Shown here in pieces: positions 29,897 to 38,602 of a DNA stretch of 64,000 nt. The notes under the pieces are model-generated. The model had not been told where the DNA came from, did not search any database, and saw only the letters and a program-made list of their open reading frames with translations. The stretch covers positions 985,501-1,049,500 of the forward strand of contig NZ_CP014596.1 of the NCBI RefSeq assembly GCF_001687105.1, written 5' to 3'. A program made the position numbers and the translations under genes. The stretch comes from Salipiger sp. CCB-MM3. GTDB taxonomy: Bacteria; Pseudomonadota; Alphaproteobacteria; Rhodobacterales; Rhodobacteraceae. How positions within the stretch are numbered: the first letter of the stretch is position 1; each line of letters begins with the position of its first letter.

Positions 29897-31144
29897 ATGA
29901 CGAAGGTCACAAGCGTGCTGATCATCGGAGCCGGGCAGGCCGGGCTCGCGCTGAGTTGGTCGCTGTCCCGGCGCGGCGTAGATCATCTGCTGCTGGAGCG
30001 GGGACGGGTCGCGGAGCGCTGGCAGTCCGAGCGCTGGCCGGGCCTGCACCTGCTGACGCCGAACTGGATGAACCGCCTGCCGGGCCCTTGGGCCGAGAGC
30101 GATCCGAACGGCTTTATGTCGGCAGCAAGCTTTGCGCAGCGGCTCATCGACTACCGCGCCGCAATCGCGGCGCCGGTGGTGGGCGGCTGCGAGGTGCGCT
30201 CGGTGAGGCGGCAGAACGGCCTGTTCCGTGTCGAGGCCGGAGAGCGCCATTGGCTGGCCCGTGCCGTGGTCATCGCGACCGGTGCCTGCGACCGGCCCGC
30301 CGTGCCGGAGTGGGCCGCCGCGCTGCCGCAGGAGATCGCGCAGATCAGCCCCACCTGCTATCGCGGCGCGGCGGGGCTTGCCAAGGACGGCGTGCTGGTC
30401 GTCGGAGCCTCGGCCACCGGCGTGCAGCTTGCCGCCGAGATACAGGCGTCGGGCCGCCCGGTGACGCTGGCCGTGGGCCGCCACGTGCGGATGCCGCGCA
30501 GCTACCGGGGGCGCGAGATCTTCTCGCTGCTGTCCGGCAGCGGCTTTCTCGCCGCGCCGCGCCCGGCGAATGCCGACCCGCAGTACCTGATGTCGCTGCC
30601 TTCGTTGCAGCTGACCGGCTCGGACGGCGGCGCGGCGCTGGGGCTCGACCGGCTGGCCGCCATGGGCGTGCGGCTTGTCGGGCGCGCGCTCGGGGTGCGG
30701 GGCAACGCGCTCATGCTCGATCCGGATCCGGGGCTTGAGATTGCCGCGGCCGAGCGCCGCCGCCAGCGGGTGCTGGAGCATCTCGACGCCGATCTGGCGC
30801 AGCGCGGCATGGCCCTGCCTGCGGACCCAGAGGCGTGGCATGCGCCGCACCTGCCCAAGCATGGCCCTGCGCTGCTCGATCTTAGGCGTGAGGGCATCGG
30901 AAGTGTGGTTTGGGCGACTGGCTTTCGTCGCAGCTACCCATGGCTGCATCTGCCCGTGCTGGACAGCGCCGGAGAACTTCAGACGCAGGGCGGGCTGACC
31001 GCTGTGCCGGGGCTCTATGCGCTTGGCCTGCCGTTCATGCGCCACCGCGCGTCCAGCTTCATCTACGGCGCGGGGCGCGATGCCGAAGCGCTTGCGCCGC
31101 TGATCGCCGCCGCGCTTGGGCGCACTGCGTCCCTTGCGGCCTGA
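29897..31144 (+). CDS. Flavin-dependent monooxygenase-like oxidoreductase (NitH paralogue)
   Basis: 415-residue protein with FAD-binding IIGAGQAGLALSWSLSRRGV near the N terminus, an NAD(P)H-binding VVGASATGVQLAAEIQASG near residue 175 and the C-terminal VVWATGFRRSYPWLHLPVLD. Length and the block LLTPNWMNRLPGPW with SDPNGFM make it a close relative of NitH of the Nit1C operon (LVTPNWQCRLP, DPDGFM). It lies 28 bases before another FAD protein. The substrate is not predictable; a small amine, sulfide or ketone is usual for this class. Position 29897 is used as start although the RBS (GATGGAGACGAG) is modest. Confidence 0.88.
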   Translation: MTKVTSVLIIGAGQAGLALSWSLSRRGVDHLLLERGRVAERWQSERWPGLHLLTPNWMNRLPGPWAESDPNGFMSAASFAQRLIDYRAAIAAPVVGGCEVRSVRRQNGLFRVEAGERHWLARAVVIATGACDRPAVPEWAAALPQEIAQISPTCYRGAAGLAKDGVLVVGASATGVQLAAEIQASGRPVTLAVGRHVRMPRSYRGREIFSLLSGSGFLAAPRPANADPQYLMSLPSLQLTGSDGGAALGLDRLAAMGVRLVGRALGVRGNALMLDPDPGLEIAAAERRRQRVLEHLDADLAQRGMALPADPEAWHAPHLPKHGPALLDLRREGIGSVVWATGFRRSYPWLHLPVLDSAGELQTQGGLTAVPGLYALGLPFMRHRASSFIYGAGRDAEALAPLIAAALGRTASLAA

Positions 31145-31172: not shown

Positions 31173-32318
31173 ATGACCCCTTCGACCTATGACGTGATTG
31201 TCGTTGGTGCCCGCTGCGCCGGTGCCGCCACCGCCATGCTGATGGCCCGGCAGGGCGCCCGCGTGCTGCTGATCGACAGTGCTCGTCGCGGCTCGGACAC
31301 GATGTCCACCCACGCGCTGATGCGCGGCGCGGTGATGCTGCTGCAGCGCTGGGGGCTTGCGGAGGAACTGCGGGCTGCGGGCACGCCGCAGGTGCGCCGG
31401 ACGAGCTTTCTCTATGGCCGGGCGGCCTTCGATATCGACATCAAACCCGAACACGGCGTCGAGGCGCTGATGGCACCGCGCCGCTATCTGCTCGACGCGG
31501 CGCTGGCGGCGGCGGCGGAGCGGGCGGGGGCCGTGGTGCGGTTTGAAACCAGTTGCGCGGGGCTGCTGCGGGATGCCTCTGGCCGGGTGTGCGGGGCGCG
31601 GCTGGCCGGGAAGGATGGCGCCGCGCAGGACGTCTCAGCCGGGCTGGTCATCGGCGCGGACGGCAAGCGTTCGCGGGTCGCGCGGCTGGCGGGGGCCGAG
31701 GTGACGCGGCAGGCGCACAGCACCGTGGCCTGCGCCTACCAATATGTCACCGGCCTGCCGCAGGACGGCTATCGCTGGCACTTCGAGGAGGGGGCCGCGG
31801 GCGGGCTGATCCCCACCAACGGTGATGGAACTTGCGCCTTTCTCGCGCTGCCGCAGTCCCGCGCCGCCGAGCTGCGCCAAAGCGCGTTGCCCGAACTGGC
31901 CGCGACGAGCCTGCCGCAACTGGCGGAGGACACGGCTGGCGCGCGCGCCGCTGAAGCGCCGGTCGTCTTTGCCGGGCTGCCGGGATATTTCCGGCGCTGC
32001 GCCGGGCCGGGCTGGGCGCTGGTGGGTGATGCCAGCTGGTTTCGCGACCCGATCACCGCGCATGGGATCACCGATGCGTTTCGCGATGCCGAGCTGCTGG
32101 CCGGGGCCGTCATGGCGGGAGGCTTGGACCGATACGAGGCGCAGCGCGATGCGCTGTCGGGACCGATCTTCGAGATCTCGGATCGAATCGCCAGCTTTGA
32201 GTGGTCGCTTGCCGAGCTTGCCGATCTGCACAAGCAGCTGAACCGCGACATGAAGGCCAATCAGGCATGGATCGCCGAGGGGGCGGCGCGGCAGCCGCTG
32301 CAGTGCCGGGTGGCCTAG
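31173..32318 (+). CDS. FAD-dependent monooxygenase/reductase-like protein (GGR/halogenase type)
   Basis: 381 residues. FAD binding is seen in VVGARCAGAATAMLMARQGA at the start (a Gly-Ala-x-x-Ala-Gly variant), in the 'GD' motif GDASWFRDPITAHGITDAFR and in DTMSTHALMRGAVMLLQRWG, which is typical of the geranylgeranyl-reductase/halogenase-like monooxygenases. The ATG at 31173 is preceded by AAAGGA. Cotranscription with the preceding NitH-like gene is likely (28 bases apart). Its stop overlaps convergently with that of the P450 gene. Confidence 0.85.
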   Translation: MTPSTYDVIVVGARCAGAATAMLMARQGARVLLIDSARRGSDTMSTHALMRGAVMLLQRWGLAEELRAAGTPQVRRTSFLYGRAAFDIDIKPEHGVEALMAPRRYLLDAALAAAAERAGAVVRFETSCAGLLRDASGRVCGARLAGKDGAAQDVSAGLVIGADGKRSRVARLAGAEVTRQAHSTVACAYQYVTGLPQDGYRWHFEEGAAGGLIPTNGDGTCAFLALPQSRAAELRQSALPELAATSLPQLAEDTAGARAAEAPVVFAGLPGYFRRCAGPGWALVGDASWFRDPITAHGITDAFRDAELLAGAVMAGGLDRYEAQRDALSGPIFEISDRIASFEWSLAELADLHKQLNRDMKANQAWIAEGAARQPLQCRVA

Positions 32319-33661
32319 TCGAACCGCAGGTGGAAATGCTGAGGATGAGGGGTGCCGCCACGGTCGATCTGACCGGCGGCACCTTCGGCGCGGCGCAGCT
32401 TGGGCTGGGCGATCAGCGGTCTCAGGATCGCCGGGATCACCGCCTTGTTGATCGCCGCGCCAAAGCAGGTGTGCATGCCATAGCCCCAGATGATGTAGCT
32501 GTCCCACGACCGATCGGTGCGGAAGTCATGCGGCGCCGCGATCCGGTAACGGTCGAACATCGCCGAGGCAGTGGCCGCAAAGACGATCTGCCCCTTACGT
32601 ACGCGCGCCTGTCGCAGGGTCGAGCGCGCCACCACCGTATCATGCAGCGCGCGGCGATAGATCACCGGGTTGTGCGGGTTGAAGCGCAGCGCCTCCCAGA
32701 CGAACTGCTCGAACTGTGGGCTCTGTTCGGCGGCGGCACGCTGCGCACGGCGCAGGTCCTCGGGGCGATTCAGCAGCTCGTCGAGCGCGAGGCAGCAGGC
32801 CTTGGAAATGGTGGGAATGGCCCCGATCAGCAGCCCCAGCATATTGTTGCGGATGCCCAGATCATCCATCCCCGGCGTGTCAGCGGCCTGCAGGTCGAGG
32901 CAGCGATTGAGGATCTGCGGACGCGTGTCGGGGGCGGCCTTGCGCGCGGCGATCGCGGTGTCGAGATACTCGCGCAGTTCGGCGGCGTAGCGCATCGCCT
33001 TGGCGTCGAGGTCCGGGTCTGCGGCCAGATCCTCGAAAAGATACCAAAAGAGCACCGTCGCCCAGTCTTGCATCTGTTCTGTGCTGCCGCCGGTGCCGAA
33101 ATAGCTGTCAGTCATATCCCACGGTACATGCCGGAAAAGTTGCGGCACCGCGTCGATGCGGCCCTCGGAGCGCGTGACGATCTCTTCGGCAAGCGATGCG
33201 GCGCGGGGCAGCACGACGTCGGAGACATCGGGGGCACGCGCGGCGAGGCGCATCGCCGAGGTGTCGCGGGTGTAGGGCCAGCCCGGTTGCATCCCGAGAA
33301 AGAAGTTCTCGCCCGCGGTCAGCTTGCGCATACGCGGGCCATAGACCACCTCGAAGTCGGCGTCGCGGTTCAGCACGTCGATGCAGTCCTCGTGCCGGGT
33401 GACGACAACGGTGCCGCTGTTGTCATAGGCTTTCACCACGGCGGCCTTTAGCGACAGGTTGGGCCAGAAGGCGCGCAGCACGGCAAAGACCTTCTGTTGT
33501 GCCTCGGGCGCGGTGAGCAGGGGCAGCAGCGCCGCCTTACCGCCCGATGCGAAGGCCGAGCCGCCCTTGCCGATCAGCCAGCCAAGCGCGACGATCCCGT
33601 CGCCCAGCATCATCACGCAGCGCCCTGCTGCGGTTATGCTTCCTGTCAGCCGGTCCAGCAT
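32315..33661 (-). CDS. Cytochrome P450 lacking the helix I acid-alcohol pair
   Basis: 448-residue P450. Heme-thiolate loop WGYGMHTCFGAAINK (Cys ligand; Trp in place of the usual Phe) and the ExxR motif FVWEALRFNPHNPVIYRRA (Glu-Ala-Leu-Arg) are intact. In helix I, however, the segment NNMLGLLIGAIPTISKACCL has Ile-Pro-Thr where oxygen-activating P450s have (Ala/Gly)-Gly-x-(Asp/Glu)-Thr. Loss of the acid resembles peroxygenases and P450 isomerases, which use hydroperoxides. A hydrophobic N-terminal segment (GRCVMMLGDGIVALGWLIG) may attach it to membranes. It is the last gene of the DyP operon; no ferredoxin or reductase gene is near. Confidence 0.88.
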   Translation of the reverse strand: MLDRLTGSITAAGRCVMMLGDGIVALGWLIGKGGSAFASGGKAALLPLLTAPEAQQKVFAVLRAFWPNLSLKAAVVKAYDNSGTVVVTRHEDCIDVLNRDADFEVVYGPRMRKLTAGENFFLGMQPGWPYTRDTSAMRLAARAPDVSDVVLPRAASLAEEIVTRSEGRIDAVPQLFRHVPWDMTDSYFGTGGSTEQMQDWATVLFWYLFEDLAADPDLDAKAMRYAAELREYLDTAIAARKAAPDTRPQILNRCLDLQAADTPGMDDLGIRNNMLGLLIGAIPTISKACCLALDELLNRPEDLRRAQRAAAEQSPQFEQFVWEALRFNPHNPVIYRRALHDTVVARSTLRQARVRKGQIVFAATASAMFDRYRIAAPHDFRTDRSWDSYIIWGYGMHTCFGAAINKAVIPAILRPLIAQPKLRRAEGAAGQIDRGGTPHPQHFHLRFD

Positions 33662-33671
33662 GGCGCGGCCC

Positions 33672-35381
33672 TCACGTGGGGTCCACGATGCCCATGGCGA
33701 TCATCCGAAGGGCGATCATCGAGGGCACGAAGAAGTAATCGCCGCCGCGGCATTCCACGAAGGTCTTCAGCTTGGTCATCATGTAGGGCGGCTTGCCGCT
33801 CTTCGGGTCCGAGGGGATCATGTGCCGGGTGTGGTGATCGTGGCGGCCCAGCATCGGGCAAGTGTTGTTGCCCTGATGGAAATCGAGCCCGTATTGGATC
33901 CACTGCTGCTGGACGAACTCGAATTGCCGGAACAGATCGACGCCCATGGCCATCATGATCACCCCTTGCTCGGAGGCGTCGTCGCGCGGCTCGAAATTTG
34001 GCGGTCCGTAAGGCAGGCCGCGCCGCAGGATGCGGCGGCGCTTGTTCAGCGCGTGGGTGGCTCCGGCGTTCTCGAACTGCTTGCCGGTCTCGGGGTCGAT
34101 GCCGAAAGCGTTCAGCGGATCGAGGTAGTCGCGGGTGTTCATCCGCCGCATATGCGCGCCGCCGGGGCATTTGAAACCCGCCATGTCGTCGGCGTAGCGA
34201 AAGTCCGATGCCTCGGCGCTGCGGATATAGGCGATCTGCTTTCTCCACGCGTCTGGAGTCATGAGCATCGACCCATTTTCGTTCCGCCAGCCGCGCGCCT
34301 TGCCGAAGGCGATCCACTCGTCATAGTCGGGCACCACGGCCAGCGGCACGCCGTCCGACCAGCGCCCGCACATCTTGGCAAGCAGCGTCTCGCGCGCCTG
34401 AGGCTCGTCGATCGCCATGCTGGTGGCAAAGCCCTGCGCCTCCTCGTCCACCACCGATTGGAAACTGGCAACATTCTCGTGCAGCTTGCGATAGGCCATA
34501 AAGGTGCCGTTCTGCATGAACTCGGGCGGCATGGCGGTCGGCGGCAATTCCTGACTTTCGCCGGTGTGGCCAAGGATGAACTCGCCGGTTTCCAGCGCCT
34601 CCCAATCGCCGCCCATGCGCTTGCCGCGCCCGATCACGGCGGTCTTTTCCTGCGCCGGCGGATATTGGCCCTTGAAGACCGGGTCGCCGATGCCGTCGGT
34701 AAAGCCGAAATGCTCGCGCGCGGTGGGCAGCGTCACCCCTCCGAAATCGTCAAACACCGCCGAGGCCGACTGGAAGGGCGCGTCCCCGGCTTTACCGTTC
34801 CGCTCCAGCAGCACGATGCCATCGCTGGTGAGGCTCCGCAGCCAATCGGTTTTCGCCTCTAGGTCGGGGTGGGGATTTTTGAGGCGGGCGAGGAAGTCCT
34901 GCGAGCCGGGCTCTGCCCCGGCCAGATCGGGCTGGGCGTTCAGCGTGACGAGGATATGGACGTCCTCGCTGCCGCCGAGCCCCTCCTTGCGGTTGCCCTG
35001 CCAGATCGGATCCCAGTCGCGATCCCAGTCCGGGTCGTCATCGGCGGTTATCGTGGGATCGCGGTCGCCGAGCATGGAGGCGCGGCTGCGCATGCCCGAG
35101 ATAAACACATCCGGCATGCCCTGCAGCGTGCGGTTCGGCACCTCCAGCCAGTAGAGCCCCATGAAGGTGAAGGCGATATTGACGGTGCAGTTGGGTTTAT
35201 CGGCCTCGTCGGGCCAGCGCGCCGAAGTGGTGACCTCGCGCCGCACCGCATCGACGAAAGCGCGGCCCGCGGCAGGATGGCGGATCTGAAAAAAGAAATA
35301 GCGCGCGAAGGGGAAGGAGAAGCGCCCATAGGCGCGCGTCACATTGCCCTGAATGTCGTGCAGGTTCAGTGCGTAAGCCAT
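33672..35381 (-). CDS. DyP-type heme peroxidase
   Basis: 569-residue peroxidase, longer than the usual 300-450, of the DyP superfamily with two ferredoxin-like alpha-beta barrels. HFGFTDGIGDPVFKG carries the GxxDG motif with the distal Asp, and FKCPGGAHMRRMNTRD the proximal heme block (CP-GAH-R--N-R) with the ligand His. No Tat or Sec signal is visible, so it is cytoplasmic or delivered by a partner. The N-terminal LNLHDIQGNVTRAYGRFSF start is common in DyP class C/D proteins. It overlaps or abuts the neighbouring genes by 10-12 bases, so it is cotranscribed with the P450 and two upstream genes. Confidence 0.93.
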   Translation of the reverse strand: MAYALNLHDIQGNVTRAYGRFSFPFARYFFFQIRHPAAGRAFVDAVRREVTTSARWPDEADKPNCTVNIAFTFMGLYWLEVPNRTLQGMPDVFISGMRSRASMLGDRDPTITADDDPDWDRDWDPIWQGNRKEGLGGSEDVHILVTLNAQPDLAGAEPGSQDFLARLKNPHPDLEAKTDWLRSLTSDGIVLLERNGKAGDAPFQSASAVFDDFGGVTLPTAREHFGFTDGIGDPVFKGQYPPAQEKTAVIGRGKRMGGDWEALETGEFILGHTGESQELPPTAMPPEFMQNGTFMAYRKLHENVASFQSVVDEEAQGFATSMAIDEPQARETLLAKMCGRWSDGVPLAVVPDYDEWIAFGKARGWRNENGSMLMTPDAWRKQIAYIRSAEASDFRYADDMAGFKCPGGAHMRRMNTRDYLDPLNAFGIDPETGKQFENAGATHALNKRRRILRRGLPYGPPNFEPRDDASEQGVIMMAMGVDLFRQFEFVQQQWIQYGLDFHQGNNTCPMLGRHDHHTRHMIPSDPKSGKPPYMMTKLKTFVECRGGDYFFVPSMIALRMIAMGIVDPT

Positions 35382-35393
35382 TTGTGGCCCTCC

Positions 35394-36407
35394 TCACACG
35401 CCGGCGCGGGGCTGCGGTGCCCTGTCCGAGATCACCCCGGGGCGCTGCGTCGGGTGGGTGATGTCCGCCGGGGCATGCTGCGCGAGAAAATCGCCAAAGG
35501 CGGCGTGCAGCGTCGCCGGGGCCGCGCCCTGATGCTCGGCGATGAAATCGGTGAAACGCTGCTGGATGTAGAGCGCTTTCAGCACCGTGGGCAGATCGTC
35601 ATGCGCTGCAGGGGGCAGCGGCTTGGCGCCATTGGCGATCGCAAAGCGCACCGCAAGCACGAAGGCGAGACATGTGAGCGCGACACCGAGGAGGCCAAGC
35701 ACCAGCGTGTTCATCCCCAAAAGAAAGCTCATGCCAAACAGCCGCAGCAGCAGTGCGCCGACACCGATCACCGCCGGAACGCCCACCGCTACGATGAGGC
35801 CTTTCAGCGGCAGATCGTTGAAGGCAGGCAGATTGAGGTAATAGTCATGATAGGGCATCGTCGTCTCGACATGGCACCGCTCCAGATAGGCCCCGAAGGC
35901 CTGCCCGCTGTCGGTGCCGTCAAACCCGTGGCAATTGCCGAAGATCGCCTTGATCTCTTCGCCCATCGTCTCCCAGAGCGTCTGCGCATAGGCCATGCGC
36001 ACCCGGCGCTGCGCGTCCGCGCTCAGCTCCGAGGGCAGCGGATCGCCGTCCTTCACGATCGCGTCGATATCGGCGGTGAACACCAGATAGGCCGAGCGCA
36101 GACCATCGACCGGCTCTGGTGTGATGGTGTTCACCTTTTTGACGGTGGCCACGAGCGCATTCTGCCGATTGCGACCGTTGTAGACCACATTGTCCAGTAC
36201 GAACATCCGCGCGAAGTGGTTGCGCAGATTGCGGGCGAAGGGCGCGGCATATGCGGTCTTCTGCGTGGCAGGCGTTTGATGTGCCGGGGGCAGGCGGGCA
36301 AGCTCGATCCGCACCTTTTGCTTGAACGAGACGTCGTTTCTCGGGCCGCCGCGCTTGATCGGGATGAGATAGGTAAGAAACAGATGTCCGCTGTCGAGAT
36401 CGGGCAT
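35394..36407 (-). CDS. Uncharacterised protein with two transmembrane segments, DyP operon
   Basis: 337 residues. The N-terminal half is soluble (LFLTYLIPIKRGGPRNDV, then NHFARMFVLDNVVYNGRNRQ and RSAYLVFTADIDAIVKDG). Around residues 210-275 there are two or three hydrophobic helices (LIVAVGVPAVIGVGALLLRL and NTLVLGLLGVALTCLAFVLA). The C-terminal part is soluble again. It shares with the next-upstream protein a pattern HFAR-h-h-h-h followed by Y-h-h-F-x-x-D/N, which hints at a common fold. Only one base separates the two genes. Function unknown; it may anchor the DyP-P450 pair at the membrane. Confidence 0.75.
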   Translation of the reverse strand: MPDLDSGHLFLTYLIPIKRGGPRNDVSFKQKVRIELARLPPAHQTPATQKTAYAAPFARNLRNHFARMFVLDNVVYNGRNRQNALVATVKKVNTITPEPVDGLRSAYLVFTADIDAIVKDGDPLPSELSADAQRRVRMAYAQTLWETMGEEIKAIFGNCHGFDGTDSGQAFGAYLERCHVETTMPYHDYYLNLPAFNDLPLKGLIVAVGVPAVIGVGALLLRLFGMSFLLGMNTLVLGLLGVALTCLAFVLAVRFAIANGAKPLPPAAHDDLPTVLKALYIQQRFTDFIAEHQGAAPATLHAAFGDFLAQHAPADITHPTQRPGVISDRAPQPRAGV

Positions 36408-36408
36408 G

Positions 36409-37086
36409 TCAGCTGCTCCTCTCGGTGTTGAACCGCGCCTGCGCCGCCGCGATATAGGCCAGACGGTTCACATCGGCGCGCTCGGTGTCGAGGCTGGCGA
36501 CCGGGCCGAAGCCGGGATCGCCGAGATCGTTCTGAACCTTGAGGTATGTGTCGCGGAAACTCTGCGCGAAGCGCTCTGCGCTGGGGCCACTTGGCTCATA
36601 TTCTTTGGCCAGCGCGAGCACCGCGTCATAGACCCGCAGCGCGGATTTAACGTCGCGCTGCGCCGAGCCGGGGGTGGCGTTGTAGTAATAATCCGTGCCG
36701 ATCTGATTGTAGGTGATGTAATCCTTGAACGGCGTGATCGGGATCGACAGCGGGTATTTCGTGGCCGAATACCAGAACAGGTTAAGGCCGTTTGGGATCC
36801 CGTCCGAGAAAGCGTCGATATACTGGTCCCATGTGCCGTTGAAATTCGAGCAGAACAGCATGTAGTCGTTCTGCGGGTCCTCTTTTCCCTGACCCAGGTC
36901 GGGCCATTGATCGCGCTTGATGATGACCCATCTGGCAAAGTGGATGAGCGAGAGCCCCAGCAGTCCCATCAGGTTCGAGGGCAATCCGCGGGCGGCCATG
37001 AACAGCAGGCGGTTTATCCAAGTCACATAGGGGCGACTGGGGGTTACCACGTTCATCGCATAGGCTTTTCCGGCGACGTTAGACAT
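36409..37086 (-). CDS. Uncharacterised protein, first gene of the DyP-P450 operon
   Basis: 225-residue protein. After a hydrophobic segment (INRLLFMAARGLPSNLMGLL, residues about 20-45) comes HFARWVIIKRDQWPDL and DYMLFCSNFNGTWDQYIDAF, a block parallel to HFAR...YLVFTADID in the neighbouring gene, then a loop rich in Tyr (KDYITYNQIGTDYYYNATPG) and a helical tail. I do not recognise an enzyme family. Start ATG at 37086 has GGAG 8 bases upstream; a longer frame reading to 37146 lacks an RBS. Transcribed together with the peroxidase and P450 genes. Confidence 0.75.
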   Translation of the reverse strand: MSNVAGKAYAMNVVTPSRPYVTWINRLLFMAARGLPSNLMGLLGLSLIHFARWVIIKRDQWPDLGQGKEDPQNDYMLFCSNFNGTWDQYIDAFSDGIPNGLNLFWYSATKYPLSIPITPFKDYITYNQIGTDYYYNATPGSAQRDVKSALRVYDAVLALAKEYEPSGPSAERFAQSFRDTYLKVQNDLGDPGFGPVASLDTERADVNRLAYIAAAQARFNTERSS

Positions 37087-37258
37087 GCGCGTTCTCCGGT
37101 GGAATTTCCTAAAACCTACTCGGAACCGCACAGACGTAGCGTGCATGAAGCCGCAATAAATCGCCTCGAGTCAAAGAATAAATGAAGTGCTTTGCCCAGG
37201 TGAACAGAGTGTTTCGAATGCACCTCCATGGTATCCGAAGTCATGTTTTGATTCAGTT

Positions 37259-38602
37259 TCAGCCGGTTATGGCCGATTGTTGAGGCTTGGCATGAATTGC
37301 ACTCTGCCGCCTCGTGGGGCGACCGGGGCCCTCGGTTGCCATTTCCCGAAGGTGCACCCCAAGCAACAGCAGCGCGGGCCAGAACATATAGGCCTCGATC
37401 TCGAGGTTCTCGCCGAAGGACAGCAGCACCAGCGTCATCAGGATGCCCAGCGGAAGCCGCCCGCGCGGATGGCGCGCGGCGTCCACAAGCGCCACCGCCA
37501 GATGCGCCACCAGCGGCACCAGCAGCGCACCAAAGCCTACGATGCCCTTCACGAACAGCAGCCCGTACCATGTGTGGTGGCTGCCGATGGGCATGTATTC
37601 CACCAGATGCGGGCCCGGCTGAACGGTGCCATGCCCGAACCAGACCGCCTCTTCGCGCCAGCGCTCAAAAGCGATCCTCTGCAGGGTTTCGCGCACCCGT
37701 GTGCTGTCGGCCCGCGCCCCTTTGAAGGCGGCCACCCCGGCCTGCGCACTGGCCAAAAGCCAGCTGCCGAGCACTGCAAGCGAGGCGGTTACCCCGGCCA
37801 GCGCGAGCCAAGCGGAACTGCGCAGCACCAGCGGCAGCATCCGCGGCGCGACGGTGCAGGCGACCAGCCCGACCAGCCCCATGCGCGACTTCGAAGCGAG
37901 GATCATCAGCAGCCCGGCGGCGATCCCGGCGGCGCGCCAGCCACGGTGCTTTTCTTCGAGCGCAAAGATCACCATGACCACGCCAAGCAGCGCCGCGAAG
38001 GGCGACCACGGCAGGTAGAACTGCCAGCGCGGTGTCCATGAGGCCGGATCGTAGGTGAAGAAATAAACCGAGAAATACTCCGGTCCCGGCCCCCCGATGG
38101 CTTTCAGCGGCGAGGTGAAGATGCGCTCGGGCAGGCCGATATAGGGCGCGGCCAGCAGCAGCGGCGCAAGCGCGAGCGTCCAGAAGCCGATGGCGCATTG
38201 GCCGCGGATCAGCACTTCGCGCCGGATCGGCAGCACCGCGCCCGCGAAGATGAAGAGCGCGACCAGAGCCCAGCCCTTGGCCCATCCGATCGAGGATTTG
38301 ATCGTCTGCTTGAGGCCCAGCCCCCAGCCCAGATGTCCGCCCCAGAGCGCCACCAGCATCACCAGCATCCCGGCCATCCACAGCCAGACCACGCCGGGCA
38401 CGGGGCCGGTCGCCCGCAGGTCGCTGCGCATCGCCGGGCCGAGGTAGAGCGACAACGCCGCCATGCCGGCAAACACCCAGCCCAGCACCGGGCCGACGAC
38501 GTAAAGCGCGCCGAGGCCGTAGAACACCCACGTCATGACCATGGCGCGCCATGCCAGCGCCTCGGCCGGGCTCATACCCTCGGGTCGGGCGCGCCCGGTC
38601 AC
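37259..38602 (-). CDS. O-antigen polymerase/ligase-like membrane protein (Wzy/WaaL type)
   Basis: 447-residue polytopic membrane protein with ten or more hydrophobic helices and a large central loop (about residues 170-210 and 275-335), the usual arrangement of Wzy/WaaL-type proteins. The loop holds SKSRMGLVGLVACT and FGHGTVQPGPHLVEYMPIGSHHTWY, including the His-x-x-x-(W/Y)-type motif found in O-antigen ligases. It starts with GTG at 38602, overlapping by four bases (GTGA) the stop of the chain-length regulator gene. Probably polymerises the repeat unit of the exopolysaccharide made by the genes around it. Confidence 0.82.
   Translation of the reverse strand: MTGRARPEGMSPAEALAWRAMVMTWVFYGLGALYVVGPVLGWVFAGMAALSLYLGPAMRSDLRATGPVPGVVWLWMAGMLVMLVALWGGHLGWGLGLKQTIKSSIGWAKGWALVALFIFAGAVLPIRREVLIRGQCAIGFWTLALAPLLLAAPYIGLPERIFTSPLKAIGGPGPEYFSVYFFTYDPASWTPRWQFYLPWSPFAALLGVVMVIFALEEKHRGWRAAGIAAGLLMILASKSRMGLVGLVACTVAPRMLPLVLRSSAWLALAGVTASLAVLGSWLLASAQAGVAAFKGARADSTRVRETLQRIAFERWREEAVWFGHGTVQPGPHLVEYMPIGSHHTWYGLLFVKGIVGFGALLVPLVAHLAVALVDAARHPRGRLPLGILMTLVLLSFGENLEIEAYMFWPALLLLGVHLREMATEGPGRPTRRQSAIHAKPQQSAITG

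Follow-up and report, generated by a model that had tools for sequence, protein, structure and literature searches.

A conserved U1–U2–DyP peroxidase gene set, commonly accompanied by a cytochrome P450, as a candidate membrane-attached haem enzyme system

A 64-kilobase (kb) stretch of the Salipiger sp. CCB-MM3 genome, referred to below as the window, carries on its minus strand a compact operon encoding two uncharacterised proteins (U1 and U2), a DyP-type peroxidase and a cytochrome P450. The U1–U2–DyP part of the set recurs across phyla with the P450 as a common addition, and the gene set almost certainly works as one functional unit. We propose that its products form a membrane-attached DyP complex, usually joined by a P450 that would use peroxide. 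The complex, the peroxide chemistry and the substrate are all predicted, and the probability of this reading is put at about 0.45.

The genes for U1 (36409..37086, 225 residues), U2 (35394..36407, 337 residues), DyP (33672..35381, 569 residues) and P450 (32315..33661, 448 residues) follow one another with intergenic gaps of 1, 12 and 10 bases. The four minus-strand genes and their spacing, as given in the initial annotation, were reproduced from the coordinates of the open reading frames (ORFs). The mechanically called ORF of U1 is longer, starting at 37146 and encoding 245 residues. The start at 37086 (MSNVAGK) fits better, because the Met at this position is invariant in an alignment of 33 rows chosen from the best 120 matches.

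Genome contigs were scanned with U1, and at least 77 loci were found; the counts per locus given here refer to this sample. Most of the loci belong to Alphaproteobacteria; the remainder come from Beta- and Gammaproteobacteria, Frankia, Streptomyces and two metagenome-assembled genomes, one cyanobacterial and one verrucomicrobial. DyP accompanies U1 in 73 of the 77 listed loci, that is in 73/73 of those long enough to contain it; the other four contigs (L047, L048, L059, L095) end before the DyP position. In 69 of these 73 loci, U2 is the best-scoring assignment for the gene between U1 and DyP. In L093, L096 and L097 this place is taken by a small gene matching U1 as well as U2, and L075 has U1 and U2 fused in one ORF. 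The P450 was found in 50 of 69 evaluable loci (the 73 DyP loci minus L070, L071, L072 and L092, whose contigs end at DyP). In 48 of them it comes after DyP and is read in the same direction; L082 has it in convergent orientation, and L093 has it upstream. The gaps between the genes are short, with medians of 9 bases for U1–U2 (68/71 between -30 and 60 bases), 7 for U2–DyP (66/68 in the same range) and 13 for DyP–P450 (42/45); L026, L075, L093, L096 and L097 were excluded from these counts. The same order and close spacing across phyla are far more than would be expected by chance.

Co-occurrence of the genes in other genomes, which the initial annotation had named as its own check, is likewise conserved. 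In a single sample of 292 genomes from the order, nine had strong U1 matches, and it was exactly these nine that had U2 and a full-length DyP. Weak U1 matches (E 1e-5 to 1e-7) occurred in six further genomes and partial DyP matches in 24 further ones, several of which belong to other U-DyP pairs (L115, L116, L119-L121). Five of the nine genomes have a close P450, G158, G169 and G228 have none close by, and G042 has a divergent P450 directly upstream of U1 (L118). Two U1–U2–DyP sets are present in G042 (L117, L118), one of them without a P450 in the available stretch. Since the P450 is missing from some core-bearing loci and genomes, the core is U1–U2–DyP and the P450 a common addition. The earlier view of the four genes as a single unit is thus borne out by the conserved linkage and by natural fusions (see below), with the amendment that the P450 is an optional member. 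Pairwise distances of the four proteins correlate with r of 0.76-0.89, a value that includes shared species history (45 rows: 47 four-gene loci minus L026, L053 and L094, plus the window).

In several genomes the components are joined in one chain. Two genomes of the window's family (L113, L114) each encode the parts in a single ORF, 1600 residues long in one and 1633 in the other: a P450 comes first, then a stretch that contains two hydrophobic segments, then a U1-like domain and finally DyP. The P450, U1-like and DyP parts were assigned by profile matches; the intervening stretch reads as U2-like from its position, hairpin and motif. The same design was found on plasmids of Sulfitobacter pontiacus (WP_180829462.1, annotated as cytochrome P450), on pNL2 of Novosphingobium aromaticivorans (1443 residues) and on a plasmid of Pararhizobium qamdonense (1423 residues). 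Single chains of P450, U-type part and DyP therefore span 1,423-1,633 residues, and L113, L114 and L144-L146 all begin with the P450. A U-DyP fusion of ~974 residues without P450 is present on two Rhizobium plasmids, and in Skermanella mucosa a 558-residue U-type gene, DyP and P450 adjoin one another. Natural joining in one chain makes a passage of peroxide and substrate between the two haems a testable question. Fusions of reverse order, with DyP first and then P450, were also seen (L169:713-3733 and L167:3688-7614); the P450 part of L167 looks degenerate at the haem Cys.

The P450 of the window scores 38.1 bits against PF00067 (cut-off 22.8). The predicted haem-thiolate ligand Cys399 (codon 32465..32467, minus strand) and the ExxR motif (Glu323, Arg326) are conserved in 51/51 aligned rows. 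By this profile and these motifs the protein belongs to the cytochrome P450 superfamily. Column 283 corresponds to the site of the I-helix acid in most P450s, an acid usual in those that activate O2. The residue in the window is Pro283 (codon 32813..32815, minus strand); Pro occupies the column in 48 of the 51 cassette rows, Ala or Leu in three, and Asp or Glu in none. The acid-alcohol pair of O2-activating class I P450s is thus absent from the cassette rows, while Thr284 is retained in most of them. The P450-first fusions L113, L114, L145 and L146 have Pro at the 283 position too. The nearest P450s found without DyP or U genes in their flanks (L158-L162) have Glu-Thr and so retain the acid.

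Three DyP-linked P450s keep the acid. L150 has ferredoxin and reductase genes alongside, and L166 and L172 are more distant P450s with Asp-Thr. L172/L203 must be counted as a genuine exception, since its Asp-Thr P450 belongs to a compact U-DyP-P450 operon. In a P450 tree built with the I-helix columns removed (a quick search with long branches), 62 linked P450s were without the acid and three with it; of the unlinked ones, 13 had the acid and one did not. Here, unlinked means that no DyP or U gene lies within ~2.5-7 kb on either side, and L026, L054, L144, L170 and L175 were left out as split, cut or near-identical rows. The tree holds just three independent pairs, with a median sign-test p of 0.5; the association of linkage with acid loss therefore carries no statistical weight and is suggestive only.

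Redox partners were searched for by Pfam. Fer2, Fer4_15 and flavodoxin gave no match in the 64-kb window, while control genomes gave matches, in agreement with the earlier statement that no ferredoxin gene lies nearby. In the window's genome, 12 Fer2 and 2 flavodoxin matches were found, all outside the window, and none for Fer4_15. Searches by phmmer with three ferredoxins and one reductase found nothing in the 50 P450-bearing loci; the sole hits were to L150, the source of two of the queries. The same queries, whose sensitivity is unproven, gave nothing in ten further regions and in L158-L162. A scan for cysteine motifs of redox partners was discarded as useless, with random matches in 37/50 loci.

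These data bear on whether the P450 is instead an ordinary O2-dependent monooxygenase served by an unlinked ferredoxin, with the DyP complex protecting it or removing peroxide from uncoupling. The ferredoxin and flavodoxin genes elsewhere in the genome would allow this, and the retained Thr284 and the Asp-Thr of L166 and L172 are consistent with it. So is pMPPM03, which has an O2-type P450, a ferredoxin and a reductase beside catalase-family, U1-like and DyP genes. However, the acid is missing from all 51 cassette P450 rows and from the four P450-first fusions, and neither a reductase nor a ferredoxin domain was recognised by Pfam in L113 or L114. An O2-dependent monooxygenase is considered rather unlikely, and use of peroxide by the P450 somewhat likelier than not.

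The P450 was also compared with known peroxide-using enzymes. It has Pro-Thr at the I-helix position in place of Arg-Pro, the CYP152 motif. The CYP152 model NF053744 was not among its NCBIfam matches, and the 51 rows show Pro, Ala or Leu at column 283. CYP152 fatty-acid peroxygenases (OleT and kin) are P450s that form Compound I from peroxide (PMC8479775), and the operon P450 would resemble them in this respect. The closest working analogy is that of the fungal dioxygenase-P450 fusions, which include linoleate diol, allene oxide and epoxy alcohol synthases; the COX-PGIS/TXS cascade is also among the nearest known systems. In these, a haem peroxidase-type enzyme works together, in many cases as a fusion, with a P450 that is independent of redox partners (PMC13049297). 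The P450 halves of the fungal fusions cleave hydroperoxides with no known redox partner, and no single distal residue is essential to all of them (PMC13049297). The operon differs from these systems in that its peroxidase is a DyP and not a peroxidase-cyclooxygenase, in the extra U1 and U2 with a membrane hairpin, in having P450-first fusions, and in being known from sequence. The peroxidase-cyclooxygenase dioxygenase half that defines fungal DOX-CYP fusions is absent, its place being taken by DyP, and the operon is for this reason not a member of that family. If the proposal is right, it would represent a partner-free P450 system outside both CYP152 and the fungal dioxygenase fusions. No description of the operon or its fusions was found in literature searches, most subscription papers lying outside their coverage.

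The peroxidase scores 31.9 bits against PF21105, the DyP N-terminal domain (cut-off 27.5), and 71.5 bits against TIGR01413, below the cut-off of 100.5. The older DyP model PF04261 has no match in the window's genome. Because of the latter two results it is regarded as a divergent DyP. Asp229 (codon 34695..34697), Arg340 (34362..34364) and His410 (34152..34154, all minus strand) are each conserved in 74/74 rows; by comparison with DyP motifs, these are presumably the distal Asp, the distal Arg and the proximal haem ligand. By family profile and catalytic residues the protein is of the DyP type, with peroxidase activity predicted. Solved DyPs (e.g. PDB 8re3, 7anv and 5c2i, the last being Alr1585) match it in the N-terminal domain and share the catalytic Asp, Arg and His. 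It differs from them in its length of 569 residues, in its U1/U2 partners in the studied loci and in a C-terminal DPT present in most rows (68/74; L025 has DAT, L093, L094, L096 and L097 differ, and L072 is cut). Retention of this tail (33672-33680 in the window) looks like a sign of a structural or binding role. DyP peroxidases are widespread, and their natural substrates are a long-standing question. One DyP now has a conserved partnership, with two families that have no Pfam match and with a P450 lacking the usual O2-activating acid.

Neither U1 nor U2 has a match in Pfam or NCBIfam. At E<=1e-3, U1 has 3570 homologues, and U2 has at least 594. The near relatives of U1 that carry names are Roseobacteraceae such as Salipiger; identity to the U1 of the window is 70-85% in 32 rows from the best 120 matches and 36-84% over the 77 listed loci. 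An earlier comparison of U1 and U2 with shallow profiles was negative, and a comparison of deep profiles gave a probability of 73.7%. The second genes of the Frankia and Streptomyces loci match both U1 and U2 queries. Judged by these profiles, the two proteins are distant paralogues. The later U1 and U2 profiles became mixed and were used only to assign genes by best score. Kinship of U1/U2 to the DyP N-terminal domain was rejected on a negative profile comparison. USP7, the best sequence match among solved structures (E 0.23), was judged to be chance.

The fold sought for U1 and U2 was the dimeric alpha/beta barrel (ferredoxin-like, beta-alpha-beta-beta-alpha-beta). The predicted U2 model contains a beta-alpha-beta-beta-alpha domain. 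Foldseek with this model returned nothing at E<=0.001, and a second comparison of it gave only a weak ferredoxin-like signal. U1 may be a ferredoxin-like (alpha/beta) partner of DyP; its own predicted structure, from the shallow 33-row alignment, had a pLDDT of 51 and was set aside. U2 has two predicted transmembrane segments at residues ~203-253 (35649..35801, minus strand), from Kyte-Doolittle windows at 203 and 235 and from model helices at 201-223 and 234-260. The membrane attachment suggested in the initial annotation is accordingly retained as a prediction, through this hydrophobic hairpin.

We propose that U1, U2 and DyP would form one haem-peroxidase complex, which the U2 hairpin would anchor to the membrane on its cytoplasmic face; U1 and U2 could serve in it as scaffold or substrate-presenting subunits. 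The P450 would be a second haem centre, added in most lineages, that takes no electrons from ferredoxin. It could act as a peroxygenase with H2O2, or could rearrange a hydroperoxide passed on by the DyP half, as does the P450 half of the fungal dioxygenase-P450 fusions. The probable substrate class would be a lipid or fatty acyl compound.

A hint to the substrate comes from sister operons, in which a catalase-family protein, a U1-like protein and DyP are encoded together on many plasmids (Deinococcus, Sphingobium, Acinetobacter and others). They resemble the operon of the window in that DyP adjoins a U1-like protein, and differ in mostly having a single U1-like protein and a catalase-family partner in place of U2 and P450. 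The sister U1-like protein matches 41 plasmid records, including fusions and other designs. Of 16 hand-chosen plasmid regions, 13 include the catalase-family gene in the gene row. Fatty-acid genes lie within the flank in eight, with oleate hydratase in four (L156, L185, L186, L189); several of the regions look like copies of one mobile block. Sister operons were seen at L150, L151, L153, L155, L156 and L184-L191, some of them beside oleate hydratase, 3-hydroxyacyl-CoA dehydrogenase, thioesterase and a TetR regulator, and their region is possibly a fatty-acid stress island. The fatty-acid genes near the sister operons make lipid chemistry plausible for the DyP/U family, a plausibility that stops short of proof for the operon of the window, where the chance of a lipid substrate is judged to be even at best.

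The sister operons also suit a different function, in which U1–U2–DyP is a peroxidase that detoxifies peroxide or lipid hydroperoxides, and the P450 and a GST are later additions clearing oxidised products. Of the 50 P450-bearing loci, 14 have a GST-like gene after the P450 (Pfam was run on two of these genes), namely L021 (12777-13562) and 13 others; a search of the window's genome with the L021 GST, made without a positive control, gave no match. The absence of the P450 from 19 of 69 loci, the pairing of DyP with catalase-family proteins in the sister regions and a Granulicella locus near katG and a Fur-family gene point the same way. On the other hand, the covalent joining of P450 and DyP points to direct hand-over more than to general clean-up, and for a house-keeping defence the distribution (nine of 292 genomes) is patchy. 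Detoxification is held to be not very probable.

DyP and P450 are both found in natural-product pathways, and the patchy distribution and the plasmid-borne fusions could also fit a small biosynthetic module for one oxidised natural product, with DyP coupling or cleaving and the P450 tailoring. However, the commonest shared gene outside the cassette is the GST (12/77 loci in ORF clustering), and the other non-cassette clusters each span at most 7 of the 77 loci. Such a module appears highly improbable.

A more specific form of the proposed DyP-P450 system would be a bacterial, independently evolved counterpart of the cyclooxygenase or linoleate-dioxygenase plus P450 cascade. DyP with its U1–U2 membrane scaffold would form or bind a lipid hydroperoxide and pass it, within a single complex or a single chain of 1,600 residues, to the acid-less P450, which would rearrange it to an oxylipin-like product; the linked GST would sometimes process this further. 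This version is considered unlikely.

PADLOC anti-phage models gave no family at E<=0.01 for U1, U2, DyP or P450, and a promoter scan of the operon found none. Terminator-like sites numbered 9 against 3.8 expected, nearly all within genes. The nearest minus-strand gene upstream of U1 ends at 37259, ~175 bases away. The region beyond reads as one for polysaccharide synthesis from the appearance of its genes and their neighbours, with no profile above cut-off. Downstream of the operon, an FAD-binding monooxygenase gene (31173-32318, plus strand) converges tail to tail with the P450. This FAD_binding_3 gene and an MSMEG_0569-like one (29897-31144, plus strand, below its cut-off) make a pair of flavoprotein oxidoreductase genes that point towards the operon from the opposite strand. 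An OsmC-family gene (PF02566; 28889-29467, plus strand) lies ~3 kb from the operon; the OsmC family includes organic hydroperoxide reductases.

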